DNA of 64,000 bases. It comes from Rhizobiaceae bacterium. GTDB lineage: Bacteria > Pseudomonadota > Alphaproteobacteria > Rhizobiales > Rhizobiaceae. The notes beneath the pieces are model-generated. The model was not told the DNA's origin. It ran no database searches and saw only the letters and a program-made list of their open reading frames with translations. Position numbers and translations under genes: made by a program. Below are positions 8,104-64,000 of this stretch, in pieces. The stretch lies in the NCBI GenBank assembly GCA_019635775.1, contig JAHBYU010000008.1, forward strand, positions 1 to 64,000. Direction: 5' to 3'. The first letter of the stretch is position 1, and each line of letters begins with the position of its first letter.

Positions 8104-9351
8104 ATGACTAACCCCGTACCTGCATTCTGGCAGGAGGCCCCTGTAGCCGAGCCGCAGGAAGCGGATCGCCTGGCAGCGCTGGATCAATTGGATCTGCTCG
8201 ACACGCCCCGAGATGGCTCCTTCGATCGTATAGTTCGGCTGATTCAGAATATCTTCAATGTGCCGACCGGTTTGGTGTCACTGATGGACGGCCACCGACA
8301 GTGGCACCTGGCGTGTTCCAGCGGCATGGATGGCGAGGCGGAAAGAAAGGACACGTTCTGTCAGTATCCCGTCGTCACCGGCCGATCGCTCGTCGTACGG
8401 GATGCGACCCAGGATCCAGTGTTCGCGCTGAATCCTCATGTTCTGGCAGAAAACGGAATCCGCTTCTACGCCGGAGTTCCTCTCAAGACGCATGAAGGAC
8501 ACACCATCGGCACCGTATGCGCGGTTGGAACGGAGCCTCGCGAGTTTGACGCTCGTGAACTACAAATTCTCACCGATCTCGCCGACATGACCATGGGCGA
8601 GATCGAGCTACGCCAGCAGGCCGCCACGGATGTGCTGACCGGGCTGCTGTCCCGGCGCGAATTCAAAGATCGTGCAACTCACGCAGTGATGCTGGGGCTC
8701 CGCCATAAGTATCCCGTGTCATGCGCGGTGATCGATGTTGACCACTTCAAGCTGGTCAACGACACGCACGGCCACGCGATAGGCGATAAAGTCCTGCACC
8801 AGATCGCCGGGGCATGCCAAAACGAGCTGCGTTCCACGGATATTCTCGGGCGGCTAGGCGGCGAAGAGTTTGCTGCGATCTTGCCTCACACAACGCTCGC
8901 TCAAGCAGTGGACGTTGCCGAGAAGCTTCGCAAGGCCGTCAAGAGGATCCAGGTACAATCGGAGAACGTCATCATCAAGGTCACCGCCAGCATCGGGATC
9001 GCTGCGCTGGGCACCGAGGCCGGGGACCTGGACACATTGTTGGCTGAGGCCGACAAAGCACTTTACGAGGCAAAGGATCAGGGTCGCGATCGTTGCATAA
9101 GCGCTCGCACGGCAGTCATGGCCGGACGACGCCGACGGGTTCTCAAAGGCGGGCGTATAGTTTTCAACAACCGGTTTTCGGCGATCGACTGCACCATTCG
9201 GTCACTGGGGGACGAAGGCGCCGGAATTGACGTGTGGAATGCCCATGACATTCCCGAAAAGTTCACGCTCGTTATCGCCCCTGAGAATGTCGAGAGGCAA
9301 TGCCTTGTCGCAAGCCGAGCAGAGAAGCATCTTGAGGTTCAGTTCTGTTGA
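8104..9351 (+). CDS. GAF-GGDEF-PilZ diguanylate cyclase
   Basis: A 415-residue signalling protein without membrane segments. An N-terminal GAF-type sensor domain (about residues 30-165, with the C-x-Y-P and GVPLKT strings of this family) is followed by a GGDEF domain (about 170-330). The catalytic loop is GGEEF at 252-256, preceded by the RSTD product-inhibition site at 243-246. FDxxKxxND-type nucleotide-binding residues (DVDHFKLVND) are intact. It should therefore make cyclic di-GMP from two GTP with feedback control. A short C-terminal PilZ-like region begins with RRRRVLKGGR at about 342 but has a degenerate second motif, so c-di-GMP binding there is uncertain. The gene is monocistronic and a terminator follows at 9578. 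Confidence 0.9.
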   Translation: MTNPVPAFWQEAPVAEPQEADRLAALDQLDLLDTPRDGSFDRIVRLIQNIFNVPTGLVSLMDGHRQWHLACSSGMDGEAERKDTFCQYPVVTGRSLVVRDATQDPVFALNPHVLAENGIRFYAGVPLKTHEGHTIGTVCAVGTEPREFDARELQILTDLADMTMGEIELRQQAATDVLTGLLSRREFKDRATHAVMLGLRHKYPVSCAVIDVDHFKLVNDTHGHAIGDKVLHQIAGACQNELRSTDILGRLGGEEFAAILPHTTLAQAVDVAEKLRKAVKRIQVQSENVIIKVTASIGIAALGTEAGDLDTLLAEADKALYEAKDQGRDRCISARTAVMAGRRRRVLKGGRIVFNNRFSAIDCTIRSLGDEGAGIDVWNAHDIPEKFTLVIAPENVERQCLVASRAEKHLEVQFC

Positions 9352-10128: not shown

Positions 10129-10416
10129 ATGAGTGACCAGAAGCAACCGGCGCGAGACGTTCGAGACGATCCGGCTCCGAATCCCGAAGGGCCGGCGCCG
10201 GGACAAAAGCCGCCGATAGAAATTCCGCCTGGCTCAGAACATGTCCCGGTAAGAACACCGGACAAAGATCCCGACCCGGTCGGAGTGGTACCCAAGACCG
10301 CGGGTGAGCCCCAACCCGGCCCGGATACATCCAACAGTCCGCTCGCAAACCGTGACATTGAAGGGCCAAGAAAGAGCGGCACAACCCCTCGGCCAACGGA
10401 CAAGCCGGCCCAATGA
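10129..10416 (+). CDS. Small proline-rich hypothetical protein
   Basis: A 95-residue hydrophilic protein rich in Pro, Asp, Glu and Lys, starting MSDQKQPARDVRDD. It has no signal peptide, membrane segment or recognisable fold and is probably disordered. The ATG at 10129 has a good GAAGGAGA site 8 bases upstream; the frame is open further upstream, but that part lacks a site and looks like non-coding sequence. It overlaps the next gene by four bases (ATGA), so the two are translationally coupled. Small disordered proteins like this are common and unannotated in rhizobia; I assign no function. Confidence 0.6.
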   Translation: MSDQKQPARDVRDDPAPNPEGPAPGQKPPIEIPPGSEHVPVRTPDKDPDPVGVVPKTAGEPQPGPDTSNSPLANRDIEGPRKSGTTPRPTDKPAQ

Positions 10417-10838
10417 CCATGGTCAGAACAGGAAGGTGTCAGTGCGGTGAAGTCCGCTTTGAAGTGTCTGGCGATCCGCTAAGGGTCGGACTGTGCCATT
10501 GCACCGACTGCCGCCAGACCAGCGGTTCCGCCTTCACCCTGTTCGCCGTCTGGCCTCGAAGTCAGTTCCGCACAGCCTCTCACGTTGCGACCTATCGCGG
10601 TCGCTCGTTCTGTCCGCGGTGCGGTAGCCGGGTGTTTTCGCTGCGGCCGGACGAAGCCGAGATCATGGTCGGCTCCCTCGACGACCCCCCTTCCAACCTG
10701 GTGCCTACTTACGAGATCTGGACACCTCGCCGCGAGAGCTGGCTTCATGGCATGCCTTGGGCAGATCAGTACGCGGGCGATCGAACTGACGAGTCGGGTA
10801 CTTGGCGCGAGTCTCACAAGGAGGGGGCTCGGCAGTAG
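10413..10838 (+). CDS. GFA/CENP-V family zinc protein
   Basis: A 141-residue protein of the glutathione-dependent formaldehyde-activating (GFA/CENP-V) family. Zinc-ligand motifs are all present: CQCGEV near the N-terminus, CHCTDCRQTSG in the middle, and CPRCGSRVF. The family binds two zinc ions; some members react with S-hydroxymethylglutathione, but most have no proven reaction, and I infer only the fold. It overlaps the preceding proline-rich gene by four bases and is the last gene of that pair. No formaldehyde-oxidation genes (adhC or fghA type) are adjacent, so a general role is as likely as formaldehyde detoxification. Confidence 0.8.
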   Translation: MTMVRTGRCQCGEVRFEVSGDPLRVGLCHCTDCRQTSGSAFTLFAVWPRSQFRTASHVATYRGRSFCPRCGSRVFSLRPDEAEIMVGSLDDPPSNLVPTYEIWTPRRESWLHGMPWADQYAGDRTDESGTWRESHKEGARQ

Positions 10839-11104
10839 TGATTGTCATTGCCAGGCACGACGACAGACTGTCGGACAGACGGTGCAGCGGAAACCCGTAA
10901 CCCGCAGCGTTCCGGGCTTTAGACAAACATCCGTCCGCCAACATCGCCTGAAAGCCGCCAAGTCTGTCCGCCAAACAGCCATGACACACGGTATTGTGCC
11001 GCGTTTACAATCACTTACCGACAGACTGCGTTTGGGAAGATGGCGGTGTGGTCAGTCTTGTGCGAACCGGTCTCGAGTGAAAATTCACTGTTGAACGGGA
11101 ATTT

Positions 11105-11233
11105 GCAGGGAATTTTGAGTAATCGAACGGTTTTTTGCGGTTGTTTCAGGTGTAAGCCGCTGAAATCAAGCCGATATCGCAGGGTTGGAAAGTCTGGATC
11201 GCAGGGAATTTTCTGCGACATGCAGGGAATTTT
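11105..11233. repeat. Three direct copies of GCAGGGAATTTT
   Basis: The 12-mer GCAGGGAATTTT occurs at 11105-11116, 11201-11212 and 11222-11233, with a shorter GCAGGG at 11179. The block lies in an otherwise gene-poor 10839-11250 stretch, just before the hypothetical gene at 11251. I have seen similar short-phrase repeats in rhizobial intergenic DNA, but this recollection was not checked. A regulatory role is possible but unsupported. Confidence 0.55.
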
Positions 11234-11250
11234 TTCGAGATTGCAGTGAA

Positions 11251-12093
11251 GTGAAACGCGCGGGAGCGTTGTGCGGATTGGCCTCCCGCGTATTGGCGGT
11301 CCACCAAGCTGCGGATTGCCGTTGGCAGTTGGAGCTGCGACACGCTATCAAAGCCGCCATTGAAACCCTCACTCAGGATTTTCACGGTCGGGCGATGTAC
11401 CAACTCAACCAGATGGAAGGCGCGCTGAACGCTCTTTTGAGCGGCAAGCCGAGTTCGGCCCGGAAGCGGCTTGGCTCCCCGATACCGAAGGCGCTGAAGA
11501 CGCAGATCAAACGGTTGCTCGAAATCGACCGGGAGCGCGCCCGTACCCGGAATGATGCGGGCGAAAACGACGGCGTCGCCTTTTTCGACGTGCTGCCCGA
11601 CGGCAAAGGCTCCGAAGCTCAATACGATGCGTTCGGCGCCACCTGCCTTGCCGTTGGCCTGCAGATGTTGCGGTTCGGTTTCAAGCAGCGTGAGGTGGTC
11701 GGCAAGATGGCCGCAGTTCGGCGTTCTCTTCGAGAGGTGCACGCGCGGCTGATGAAGGATGTGGCCGTGGAGGGGCCGACCTACGATATTCACAACGCGG
11801 CGAACCTGCCCCGAAAGCGAGGTGGTCGCAATCCGGACACGAATACTGCCGACGTCAGCTGGTTCCTGGTTGTCGATGCGGTGGAAGACGCTGACGGGGC
11901 TTCGCCGGAGGGGCATGGCGACCGCAGGCATAAAACGGCGACATGTCGGGGCTGGGAAGACCTGATGCGTTTTCTACAGCAGATCATTCCGCATGAGCGG
12001 CCAGGCGTCTTCGTCCTGGAGATATCCGAGCCTATGGTGCGCATGAGCGAGCTTCTGGACGCGCAGCCAGTCCGTCGGCGGGGCCGCAGTTGA
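11251..12093 (+). CDS. Hypothetical protein of an accessory block
   Basis: An approximately 280-residue, mostly helical, basic protein I do not recognise. The frame opens at an ATG at 11185, but its first 22 codons translate the GCAGGGAATTTT repeat block, so a start at the GTG at 11251 or later is more plausible. Visible features are a helical region with a QLNQMEGALNALL segment near residue 50, a basic KALKTQIKRLLEIDRERARTR stretch, and a Cys- and Trp-containing C-terminal part. There is no signal peptide or membrane helix. It lies 258 bases before the ParB-methyltransferase gene on the same strand and may belong to the same mobile module. Confidence 0.45.
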   Translation: MKRAGALCGLASRVLAVHQAADCRWQLELRHAIKAAIETLTQDFHGRAMYQLNQMEGALNALLSGKPSSARKRLGSPIPKALKTQIKRLLEIDRERARTRNDAGENDGVAFFDVLPDGKGSEAQYDAFGATCLAVGLQMLRFGFKQREVVGKMAAVRRSLREVHARLMKDVAVEGPTYDIHNAANLPRKRGGRNPDTNTADVSWFLVVDAVEDADGASPEGHGDRRHKTATCRGWEDLMRFLQQIIPHERPGVFVLEISEPMVRMSELLDAQPVRRRGRS

Positions 12094-12253
12094 GAGGTGA
12101 TTGGCGCTCTGTGGGTCAGCCCGAGAGCCTTTGACCCCGTCTCTATATACTGGCCACTCCTTATCGCAGGTTGCCGCTGCCGCCCTGCCCTGCTTCAGTC
12201 TTTGGTTCGATTGGCGCAAGTGACCCGCGTGCGATTGACGGCGCTTTTTGTAT

Positions 12254-59762: not shown

Positions 59763-59941
59763 TTCGTATCTATATACGCGTGCACCATCGTCTTGCGGAG
59801 GATCGAACCGCAGGCCGACATATGGTCGACGTCTGCTTTGCGCCCCCTTGCACGAACCCGCTTCGCGGGAGGGGCGCCACGACTTGAGATGGCGTAGTAT
59901 TCGCAGCCTTTGAGCAGGCGGCGGCGAGCGAGCCGAGCATG

Positions 59942-59966
59942 GAGTTCCCTTCAACGAGAGGAACTC
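59942..59966 (+). promoter_or_regulatory. Hairpin over the ribosome binding site of the recombinase gene
   Basis: GAGTTCC (59942-59948) pairs perfectly with GGAACTC (59960-59966), ending three bases before the ATG at 59970 and covering the AGAGGA ribosome binding site. Such a structure would lower translation of the recombinase, a common feature of transposition genes. Confidence 0.45.
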
Positions 59967-59969
59967 GCC

Positions 59970-60875
59970 ATGGCTACCTCGTCGACCGATGCACCCGTTT
60001 CGCCGCTCCGCCAGCGCATGCAGCACGACATGCTCATGCGTGGCCTCGGCACCCACACACGGCAGGACTACGTTCGTCACGTCCGGTGCTTCGCCGCGTT
60101 CCTGGGGCGCTCGCCCGAGACCGCGACGCCGGACGATATCCGCCGCTTCCAGCTCGATCAGCATGAGAAGGGCGTCGGACCTGCGACCATCAATGGCACG
60201 GTCTCGGCGCTGCGGTTCCTGTTCCTGGTGACACTGCAGCGGCGGGATCTGTCGCGCGCCCTGGTGATCACGCGCTATCACCGCAAGCTGCCGGATGTGC
60301 TCAGCGTCGAGGAAGCGGGACGGCTGCTCGAAGCCGCACCGGGCCTCAAGTACAAGGCCGCGCTCGGCGTGGCCTATGGCGCGGGCCTGCGCGTGTCCGA
60401 GGTTGCGCACCTCAAGGTCGACGACGTCGACTCGGGACGCATGCTCCTTCGTGTCGAGCAGGGCAAGGGCCGCAAGGATCGCAACGCAATGCTCTCGCCG
60501 CAGCTCCTGGAGCTGCTTCGACTGTGGTGGCGTGAAGGCAGGCGGCGCGGGATCATGCTTCCGCATGGCTGGCTGTTCCCAGGTCGCAGCCGCACCGATC
60601 CGATCTCGCCGCGGCAACTGCATCGCGCCGTCCAGGAGGCCGCCGAGGTCGCCGGCATCCGCAAGCGCGTCAGCCCGCACACGCTGCGTCACAGCTTCGC
60701 CACCCACCTGCTCGAACAGGATGTCGACATCCGCGTCATCCAGGTGCTGCTTGGGCACAGCAAGCTTGAGACGACCGCTCTCTACGCCAAGGTCTCGACC
60801 CGGACGATCCACGCGGTCACCGGGCCGCTCGACCGCCTGATGGCGCTGATGGAGGGCAAGACGCCGCCCGGCTGA
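59970..60875 (+). CDS. Tyrosine recombinase of an IS91-type unit
   Basis: A 301-residue XerC/D-like recombinase. The N-terminal SAM-like domain (QHDMLMRGLGTHTRQDYVRHVRCFAAFL) precedes the catalytic domain with box I Arg in YGAGLRVSEVAHL, the lysine strand in GKGRKDRNAML, HTLRHSFATHLLEQ, GHSK and the Tyr nucleophile in TTALYAKVS. The ATG at 59970 has AGAGGA upstream inside a hairpin. Recombinases of this type regularly precede IS91-family transposases in alphaproteobacteria, here with a 3-base gap, so the pair acts as a unit. Confidence 0.87.
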   Translation: MATSSTDAPVSPLRQRMQHDMLMRGLGTHTRQDYVRHVRCFAAFLGRSPETATPDDIRRFQLDQHEKGVGPATINGTVSALRFLFLVTLQRRDLSRALVITRYHRKLPDVLSVEEAGRLLEAAPGLKYKAALGVAYGAGLRVSEVAHLKVDDVDSGRMLLRVEQGKGRKDRNAMLSPQLLELLRLWWREGRRRGIMLPHGWLFPGRSRTDPISPRQLHRAVQEAAEVAGIRKRVSPHTLRHSFATHLLEQDVDIRVIQVLLGHSKLETTALYAKVSTRTIHAVTGPLDRLMALMEGKTPPG

Positions 60876-60878
60876 GCC

Positions 60879-62072
60879 GTGCGCGCCTCGATCGAGGTCG
60901 CCGACGTCTTCCGCGCAGCAGGGCCTGCCTACCGGGCCGTGCATTCCGGGCGCTTAAGCCCCGCCCAGCTCAAGGTCATGTCGGCAATCGAGAACTGCCG
61001 CACCGCAGCGCTCGGCGGTCACGTCGAAGCCTGCGAGGACTGCGGCCAGTGGCGCATCGCCTACAACTCCTGCCGCAACCGGCACTGCCCGAAGTGCCAG
61101 GGCGCGGCGGCACGGACGTGGCTTGCCGAGCGCGAGGCCGACCTGCTGCCGGTCGGCTACTTCCACGTCGTGTTCACGCTGCCGGCCGAGGTCGCCGACA
61201 TCGCCTTCCAGAATAAGGCGCTCGTCTACGATCTGCTGTTCAAGGCGGCGGCGGAGACGATGCTGACGATCGCGGCAGATCGCAAGCATCTCGGCGCGCG
61301 CATCGGCATCACCGCTGTGCTCCACACCTGGGGATCAGCAATGACCCACCATCCGCACGTGCACATGATCGTGCCGGGCGGTGGCATCGCGCCCGATGGA
61401 AGCCGGTGGATCGCGTCGCGGCCGGCCTTCCTGCTTCCGGTGCGCGTGCTGGGCAAGCTGTTCCGGCGGCTCTTCATCACCCGGCTGGTCGCGCTCCACG
61501 ACGCCGGGCGGCTCGGCTTCTTCGGGACCATGGCACACCTCATCGAGCCCCGCGCGTTCCTACGCCGCCTTGCTCCCGTTCGCGGGAAGCGATGGGTGGT
61601 CTACGCCAAGGCGCCGTTCGCCGGACCGGAGGCGGTCCTCGCCTATCTGTCCCGCTACACCCACCGGGTTGCGATCTCGAACAGCCGCCTGATCGCCTTC
61701 GACCAGGACGGTGTCACCTTCCGCCACAAGGACTATCGCCGCGACGGCGTTGATCGGCAGCAGGTCATGACGCTTGCGGCCGACGAGTTCATCCGCCGCT
61801 TCCTGATCCATGTCCTGCCGCGAGGCTTCCATCGCATCCGGCACTACGGCCTGCTTGCCGGCTCCGCCCGCAAGGCCAGCCTCGCGCTCGCCCGCGAACT
61901 CCTGGATGTCGCCGCGCCCCCTGACCCACGCGACGCCGACGAACCGGAGGACTTCCGTCCGCCATGCCGGTGCTGCGGTGGACGCATGATCGTCATCGAG
62001 GTGTTCGAACGCTGGGGGCAGCCGCGAGGACCCCCGCACGCTTCAGCGACGAACCGGGAGACCGCGCCATGA
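60879..62072 (+). CDS. IS91-family HUH transposase
   Basis: A 397-residue transposase. An N-terminal zinc-binding domain is visible as CEDCGQWRIAYNSCRNRHCPKCQG. The HUH metal site is HHPHVHMIVPGGG, and a catalytic Tyr lies in YLSRYTHRVAISNSRL. A C-terminal basic region and CRCCGG follow. IS91 enzymes nick one strand and transpose by rolling circle. The start is a GTG three bases after the recombinase stop. The gene is full length and looks intact. A short frame after its end (62069-62299) is not convincing as a gene. Confidence 0.9.
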   Translation: MRASIEVADVFRAAGPAYRAVHSGRLSPAQLKVMSAIENCRTAALGGHVEACEDCGQWRIAYNSCRNRHCPKCQGAAARTWLAEREADLLPVGYFHVVFTLPAEVADIAFQNKALVYDLLFKAAAETMLTIAADRKHLGARIGITAVLHTWGSAMTHHPHVHMIVPGGGIAPDGSRWIASRPAFLLPVRVLGKLFRRLFITRLVALHDAGRLGFFGTMAHLIEPRAFLRRLAPVRGKRWVVYAKAPFAGPEAVLAYLSRYTHRVAISNSRLIAFDQDGVTFRHKDYRRDGVDRQQVMTLAADEFIRRFLIHVLPRGFHRIRHYGLLAGSARKASLALARELLDVAAPPDPRDADEPEDFRPPCRCCGGRMIVIEVFERWGQPRGPPHASATNRETAP

Positions 62073-62592: not shown

Positions 62593-63312
62593 CTACTTCG
62601 CGAGCCAGCGTGCGTAGGCGTCAATGTCGATCATCGGCACCGTTCCGCTAAACTGAAGTTTCGAGATCAGTTTGAACAGAAATGCCGTCGCGGGCTTATT
62701 TTCGTTCACGAACGTGTAGTCGCCCGACTGCTCGCGGCAAAAATGGCCATGAGAGGCCACGCAGCCCAGATCGAGCTGCCGATCGCCGGTGCCGGCCATC
62801 AGCGCTTTCTCGAAAGACGATCCCAGCGGCGGACTCCATTCGCTTTCAAAGGTGAGGAGTCCACCGAAGATCGGGGTAAGCGGCTTCGCCGGATAAACGC
62901 CTCCTGCGTGCGGGATCGGCAAACTGGTTCGGTGCAGACGGCGCACCGACGCAACCTTGTCCTGCGCGTAGCCGACCAGCGCGGCATTCACAGTCTGCTT
63001 CGCCTCAAAAACGGCGTACACACTTTCTGCCGGAATGATGGTCTGCTTCTCATAGGTGAAGATGAAAGGCGAATACTGGCGGTCAAAGACGACAACATCG
63101 ATCTGATCGCTGAATGCCCCGGCGCTGTCTACGACATGTGCCTTGGCCGCCTGGTAGCGCTTAGGAAGGTACGTCTCCAACAGGCTGATCCAGACATTCT
63201 CGCTGGCATCGCCGGTCGTGCCAGGGTGAGGGAAGCTCTTCCGCGCGATCGACAGCCGCTGCTGAATATCTTCGTGAAGGTTCGCGAGAAGTTGAGACAA
63301 GGTAACTGCCAT
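62593..63312 (-). CDS. DUF6602 nuclease-like protein paired with a CD-NTase
   Basis: A 239-residue protein that I match to DUF6602. The core SDQIDVVVFD (D72) followed about 30 residues later by ESVYAVFEAKQ (E103-A-K105) is the D-ExK layout of PD-(D/E)xK nucleases. The N-terminus is helical (LSQLLANLHEDIQQRL) and the C-terminus ends with a helix likely for oligomerisation. There is no SAVED, membrane or signal region. It starts 15 bases after the nucleotidyltransferase stop on the same strand, so the two are an operon. By analogy with CBASS the nuclease would be the effector, but DUF6602 has not, to my knowledge, been shown to act this way. Confidence 0.7.
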   Translation of the reverse strand: MAVTLSQLLANLHEDIQQRLSIARKSFPHPGTTGDASENVWISLLETYLPKRYQAAKAHVVDSAGAFSDQIDVVVFDRQYSPFIFTYEKQTIIPAESVYAVFEAKQTVNAALVGYAQDKVASVRRLHRTSLPIPHAGGVYPAKPLTPIFGGLLTFESEWSPPLGSSFEKALMAGTGDRQLDLGCVASHGHFCREQSGDYTFVNENKPATAFLFKLISKLQFSGTVPMIDIDAYARWLAK

Positions 63313-63327
63313 GACGCACCGCCTAGT

Positions 63328-64000
63328 TTATGACAAAGGGAACTTCGGGCCGAACAACTGCCGCCACGCCTTCAGTGCGTCGCCATTGCGCCCCTGGCGG
63401 GCAAGGTTGATCGCTTCACTCGCCTCCCGACTAGCGGCCATGAGAAGATCGCGGGCGCGCTGTTTGCGGGCGAGATCCATGGCGTCGCTGATCGGCGGGC
63501 CGAGGCCGGCCGGATCATTCCAGATGTCGAAAATCCGATCCGCAAGGGTCGAGAACAACGCTTGTAGTTCATAGTCGAAGCGGCCCTGCCAGCCGCCGTA
63601 AAGGCATTCAAGCGCCATCACCTCGATCAGGAAGGACGGCTTGATCGGCTTGTCGGTGCCGTGCCGCTTGTTGTTGTTCCAGTACTTGACCATGCGCACC
63701 AGCCCCTTCCACTCGCTGGAAAAGGCCTGATGCGCGGTAACCGCTTTCTCGGCGTGAATCTTGGGATTCGTCTTGATCCACTTGCCGGCATCGGTGTCGG
63801 GAATCTCGTAGTTGTCGCCGCCGGTGAAAGCGGGGACTACATCCACGCTCAGGATGCGGTAGTCGGTATTGTCCTCGGCATCGACGACCACGCCGAAATC
63901 GACATTCACCGAACGGCTCTGCTGACGCACCGCATCCTTGCCGTACTTTTCCACAAGGGCCTCGTTGAAATCCCCGATGACGACCGACGGCGCTTTGCCG
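63328..64000 (-). CDS. CD-NTase-like nucleotidyltransferase (partial, runs off right edge)
   Basis: The frame is open from 63328 to the window edge, giving at least 223 C-terminal residues; the N-terminus with the GS and first DxD motif is outside. The string [10 protein letters not shown] fits the third catalytic Asp strand of cGAS/DncV-like nucleotidyltransferases. It is followed by helices with [31 protein letters not shown] and [11 protein letters not shown], typical of the SMODS/OAS-like C-terminal domain. Such enzymes make cyclic oligonucleotides on phage infection. An internal GTG at 63954 is not the real start. It precedes the DUF6602 gene by 15 bases. Confidence 0.72.

Follow-up and report, generated by a model that had tools for sequence, protein, structure and literature searches.

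Genes at the locus and their surroundings

The window analysed here, which covers bases 1-64,000 of a contig of 215,514 bp (C35), ends within an operon on the minus strand. The last gene of this operon (62593..63312) encodes a protein of 239 aa that is identified by PDB, PADLOC and Pfam (there under the name DUF6602) as the PD-(D/E)xK endonuclease effector NucC. It is preceded by a CD-NTase gene of the CdnD type, of which the C-terminal three quarters lie in the window (63328..64000; PDB, NCBIfam and Pfam SMODS). Reading this ORF past the window edge gives a complete gene of 300 aa (63328 to contig position 64230). Directly upstream of the CD-NTase and on the same strand lie genes for a HORMA protein of 165 aa (contig 64230-64727; Pfam bacHORMA_2, PDB 6p8r), a second HORMA protein of 159 aa (contig 64724-65203; PADLOC HORMA, PDB 6p8p) and a TRIP13-like ATPase of 309 aa (contig 65200-66129; PADLOC, Pch2/TRIP13 structures). 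For the first HORMA gene, the ATG at 64727 was preferred as the start over a longer ORF beginning with TTG. Neighbouring genes in this array of five overlap by 1 to 4 bases, the exception being the gap of 15 bases before NucC. Divergently from the array, on the plus strand, lie the genes for CapH, an HTH protein (contig 66294-66614; PADLOC capH), and CapP, a metallopeptidase (contig 66611-67504, counted from its ATG; PADLOC capP, PDB 7t5t). The ORFs of all seven genes are open. The initial annotation had suggested a search for Cap2/Cap3-like genes to the right of position 64000; the HORMA and TRIP13-like genes are found there instead, and the PADLOC matches of the ten contig ORFs that were scanned include no Cap2 (E1/E2-like) or Cap3 (JAB-like) model.

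The CBASS locus lies between two IS91-type units of opposite orientation. The left one (window 59910-62072, plus strand), recognised by its domain matches, comprises an integrase of the tyrosine recombinase type (59910-60875) and a transposase with Zn_Tnp_IS91 and Y2_Tnp domains (60879-62072), and the right one (contig about 68249-70251, minus strand), likewise made up of an integrase and a transposase, has a broken transposase frame. In the coordinates of L002, the segment of the contig from 58001 to 78000, the right unit lies at 10249-12251. Since the two units, in a gapped alignment, agree at 71% and 87% over two stretches, they are not the product of one recent duplication. Also to the right of the CBASS locus are an IS110-type transposase (L002:12675-13718), a DUF2924 gene (L002:14846-15415) and a large serine recombinase with Resolvase and Recombinase domains (L002:15372-17093). 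The mobile neighbours named in the initial annotation are thus borne out for the IS91-type unit, but its "integrase remnant" is an ORF of 321 aa with a nearly complete Phage_integrase match and not obviously a remnant. To find an empty site, the left flank was compared with two genomes of the same genus and one of the same family; two of the three had a short and weak match, and the third had none.

NucC, its cyclase and the name DUF6602

In the window, the initial annotation had described a CD-NTase-like nucleotidyltransferase with a VDVVPA strand, followed 15 bases later by a DUF6602 protein, and both ORFs are as described, the latter matching Pfam DUF6602 with an E-value (1.9e-30) far beyond chance. 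The same annotation held DUF6602 to be distinct from NucC and the pair to be undescribed, and here it went astray, as the window protein matches NucC at E 1e-113 to 1e-123. Its residues 4-239 of 239 align with the solved structure 6q1h (E 1.3e-123), and residues 4-238 align with 6p7o, the NucC of E. coli MS115-1 (E 1.7e-113). Together with 6p7p (E. coli MS115-1 NucC, E 8.7e-113), 6uxf (Vibrio metoecus NucC, E 4e-74) and 7zgv (Serratia NucC, E 1.6e-44), five distinct solved sequences are matched. The PADLOC model of the NucC effector recognises the protein as well (E 2e-111); an NCBIfam search with it gave no match. The structure 6q1h was deposited as 'ORF C62', and we take it to be the NucC of P. 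aeruginosa.

When the aligned stretches of two solved NucC proteins were in turn put into Pfam, both returned DUF6602, 6p7o with E 4.9e-30 (residues 20-123 of the stretch) and 6q1h with E 3.1e-29 (residues 21-123). Because solved NucC matches the family in this way, DUF6602 is the name under which Pfam lists the N-terminal nuclease region of NucC, covering the N-terminal half of this protein. The window protein is, by the same comparisons, NucC, the CBASS endonuclease that is activated by cyclic triadenylate. The PD-(D/E)xK layout noted earlier (D72...E103-x-K105) is present, with D72, E103 and K105 as the catalytic Asp, Glu and Lys, and 63 of the 64 relatives keep each of the three, the exception (L065) being a C-terminal fragment. 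The name DUF6602 was not found in the literature that we searched, and its absence may explain how the identity with NucC gets missed. This corrects a trap set by a domain name: a pair annotated as "CD-NTase + DUF6602" of the present kind amounts to a NucC CBASS and not to a new system.

As a side observation, 6q1h carries an Asn at the position that corresponds to D72 (QINVVVF as compared to QIDVVVF in the window protein), which probably reflects an inactivated variant made for crystallisation.

The part of the CD-NTase that lies in the window matches Pfam SMODS far beyond chance (E 2.4e-8) as well as the structures 6p8u, 6p8j and 6p82 (E 2.1e-108), covering residues 78-300 of 6p8u, and this partial protein passes the NCBIfam model CBASS_cyclase_b (NF041117) with 222.5 bits at a cut-off of 200. 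The complete protein has the GS...DxD motif, in the form TGSY...DID, which the initial annotation had expected to the right of position 64000, and the third Asp in SVDVVP. The GS motif is found in 53 of 55 related CD-NTase ORFs, the other two having gaps at this place. The enzyme can hence be assigned to the CdnD type with complete active-site motifs. According to a recent article (PMC13424991, 2026), P. aeruginosa CdnD (6P8J) has a TGSY motif and makes cA3, and by analogy the window enzyme would yield the same product.

As for the accessory genes, the HORMA protein of 165 aa matches Pfam bacHORMA_2 (E 8.7e-80) and PDB 6p8r (E 4.1e-70), and the one of 159 aa matches the PADLOC HORMA model (E 1.5e-74) and PDB 6p8p (E 9.8e-64), with no match in Pfam. 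The solved relatives of the shorter protein are 6p8p, which is unnamed, and chain C of 6p8s, which its depositors labelled HORMA1; in PMC10419184, HORMA1-type complexes are described to require long dsDNA, a requirement that is absent from operons with HORMA2 and HORMA3. The TRIP13-like ATPase is recognised by PADLOC (E 1.5e-144), and the structures closest to it are those of Pch2/TRIP13 homologues (E 6.4e-28). Because HORMA and TRIP13 genes are the markers of type III, the gene set is classified, from its sequence, as a complete type III CBASS.

The closest known counterpart is the type III CBASS of P. aeruginosa (CdnD, two HORMAs, TRIP13, NucC). The alignment of the window NucC with 6q1h runs from end to end, the cyclase matches 6p8u over the range given above, and 6p8r and 6p8p are the best solved relatives of the two HORMA proteins; 6q1h, 6p8p and 6p8r presumably all come from the same locus of P. 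aeruginosa strain ATCC 27853. The proteins of the two systems show ordinary sequence divergence only, and the window locus has the divergent CapH-CapP pair upstream. The CBASS of E. coli MS115-1 likewise has a NucC effector (6p7o) and, as we assume, shares the HORMA/TRIP13 logic of the window operon; we also take it to be the E. coli system with a CdnC cyclase and an SGSL motif, and to have a single HORMA. The E. coli cyclase is of the CdnC type with SGSL (PMC13424991), whereas the window operon has a CdnD-type enzyme with TGSY and two HORMAs.

A type III CBASS operon, its relatives and the alternatives

In our reading, the locus is almost certainly an anti-phage operon of type III CBASS in complete form, in which a TRIP13-like ATPase and two HORMA proteins are encoded together with a CdnD-type cyclase and the nuclease NucC, next to a divergent CapH-CapP pair. 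The gene identities, their order, the catalytic motifs and the recurrence of the arrangement were observed directly, and the pair noted at the outset is real but ordinary, as it belongs to an already described kind of anti-phage system. For every biochemical step, the characterised homologues serve as the guide. By this analogy, a HORMA protein would bind the CD-NTase and activate it, and the TRIP13-like ATPase would dismantle the active HORMA/CD-NTase complex. The activated CD-NTase would produce cyclic tri-AMP, and NucC trimers that bind it would pair into hexamers cutting double-stranded DNA, including the host chromosome, such that the infected cell would die before phage release. The operon would be repressed by CapH until CapH is cleaved by CapP, itself activated by single-stranded DNA. 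In PMC10419184 and PMC9704534, HORMA binding to the CD-NTase, disassembly of the active complex by TRIP13 and the cA3-driven conversion of NucC trimers to dsDNA-cutting hexamers that destroy the host chromosome are described, and PMC13373217 reports that CapP is activated by ssDNA and then cleaves CapH. It might be that this host does not express the operon, though all seven ORFs are open.

A scan for NucC in one genome per species yielded 64 loci, a number that includes several near-duplicates counted separately. The five-gene order (TRIP13-like, two HORMAs, CD-NTase, NucC) was found by tblastn in 19 of them, and iterated HMMs detected a CD-NTase-family ORF in 52, counting two loci with the CD-NTase at the opposite side of NucC (L060 and L063) and one weak partial match without the motif (L051). 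With the pairing recurrent and the GS...DxD motif in place, the initial proposal that cyclase and nuclease form a CBASS has held up. Among the 12 loci without a CD-NTase ORF, nine were checked by a scan of one or two ORFs next to NucC, and NucC stands beside type III CRISPR genes in five of these (Cas10 in L041, L047, L054 and L055; Cmr6 in L062), while L057, L059, L064 and L065 had no match. As for the remaining three, L029 has a TRIP13-like gene and its NucC is less than 1.7 kb from the end of the locus, L037 has NucC at the locus end, and in L044 nothing was found. Both the CBASS and the CRISPR use of NucC are known, and NucC has been reported in 31 type III CRISPR loci (PMC9704534). Since five of the nine checked loci sit with type III CRISPR, NucC alone is no proof of CBASS; at the window locus, this proof comes from the adjacent CD-NTase.

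In the host's bacterial family, NucC matches were obtained in 5 of 199 sampled genomes, including the window's own and one with a match only at E 6.7e-4; the two other genomes of the same genus that were listed gave none. NucC hence looks rare in this family, and its patchy distribution is as expected of mobile defence genes. With the window locus, this family has a further full set of type III CBASS genes.

The same data bear on other ways to read the locus. One might suppose an undescribed class of CBASS with a DUF6602 nuclease other than NucC as its effector, in line with the fact that Pfam still labels the family a "domain of unknown function" and that the literature searched does not use the name. 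However, the alignment of the window protein with solved NucC over nearly its whole length and the DUF6602 match of solved NucC itself refute this idea, to which we give next to no credence. NucC could also work for type III CRISPR instead of the cyclase, as suggested by the relatives with Cas10 upstream or with Cmr6 and by the published CRISPR loci. The CRISPR-associated NucC proteins from Serratia (7zgv) and Vibrio metoecus (6uxf, which we take to be CRISPR-linked) do belong to the same nuclease family, but the window NucC has a CD-NTase and not Cas10 beside it: it follows a complete CD-NTase gene after 15 bases in a five-gene array on one strand, and the ten contig ORFs scanned against PADLOC include no Cas protein. 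Given the adjacent CD-NTase, we reject a CRISPR link at this locus, its probability being minimal.

A decayed, non-functional CBASS left behind by the surrounding mobile elements is likewise improbable, if to a lesser degree. The position between two inverted IS91-type units, one of them with a broken transposase frame, would be compatible with decay, but all ORFs of the operon and its regulators are open, and the motifs that we looked at are kept.

CapH, CapP and palindromes in the divergent promoter region

The regulators adjoining the operon are a pair of HTH repressor and M78-like metallopeptidase. CapH is recognised by the PADLOC capH model (E 8.7e-30), and CapP by capP (E 1.9e-60) and by the solved CapP 7t5t (E 1.3e-51), with the motif HELGH (HExxH) of an M78-type peptidase. 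In these respects the pair resembles the CapH-CapP pairs of CBASS and Bub operons, and no difference was found. A promoter and terminator scan of the region between CapH and the TRIP13-like gene found none.

By sequence symmetry, two palindromes, GTTCGGTCTATATCGAAC and GTGCGATATATATCGAAC, were recognised in this divergent region, 48 bp apart (L002:8189-8206 and 8237-8254, i.e. contig C35 66189-66254, to the right of the window). A symmetrical pattern built from both, with up to three mismatches, had no match in 200 shuffles of L002. We further examined the 300 bp upstream of CapH in nine loci, namely the window's and eight with a CapH detectable at the tblastn level. The form GTTCG-N6..8-CGAAC is present in six of them (L002, L003, L004, L007, L016 and L020) and was not found in L034, L036 and L066, the background being 3 occurrences in 957,817 bases. 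This motif was defined after five of the six positive loci had been seen, such that only L007 counts as an independent match. The second palindrome of the window departs from the strict form, and strict sites are absent from the loci in which CapH or a CapH-CapP-like regulator was found by HMM only. The palindromes of the pair are spaced by 50 bp in L003 and L004.

On balance, we lean towards the view that the divergent CapH/TRIP13 promoter carries a candidate CapH operator pair, with GTTCG-N6..8-CGAAC or a sequence near to it, 48-50 bp apart where paired, that is common to the CapH-CapP-associated NucC operons of Rhizobium, Roseococcus, Pseudomonas, Photorhabdus and the window's organism. CapH would then bind at the palindromes. 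If this is the case, the operator pair would provide one sequence rule for finding CBASS operons under the control of DNA damage.

A different arrangement of the regulator is seen in L005 (3938-5017), where the divergent gene is a single ORF that matches both the CapH and the CapP profiles, much like a fusion of repressor and peptidase. A single ORF of this kind likewise occupies the corresponding place in L006, L008, L011, L013, L014, L015, L019 and L053, and also in L045. For the ORF of L005, the one locus of this group that was scanned, the best name in PADLOC is RmrA.
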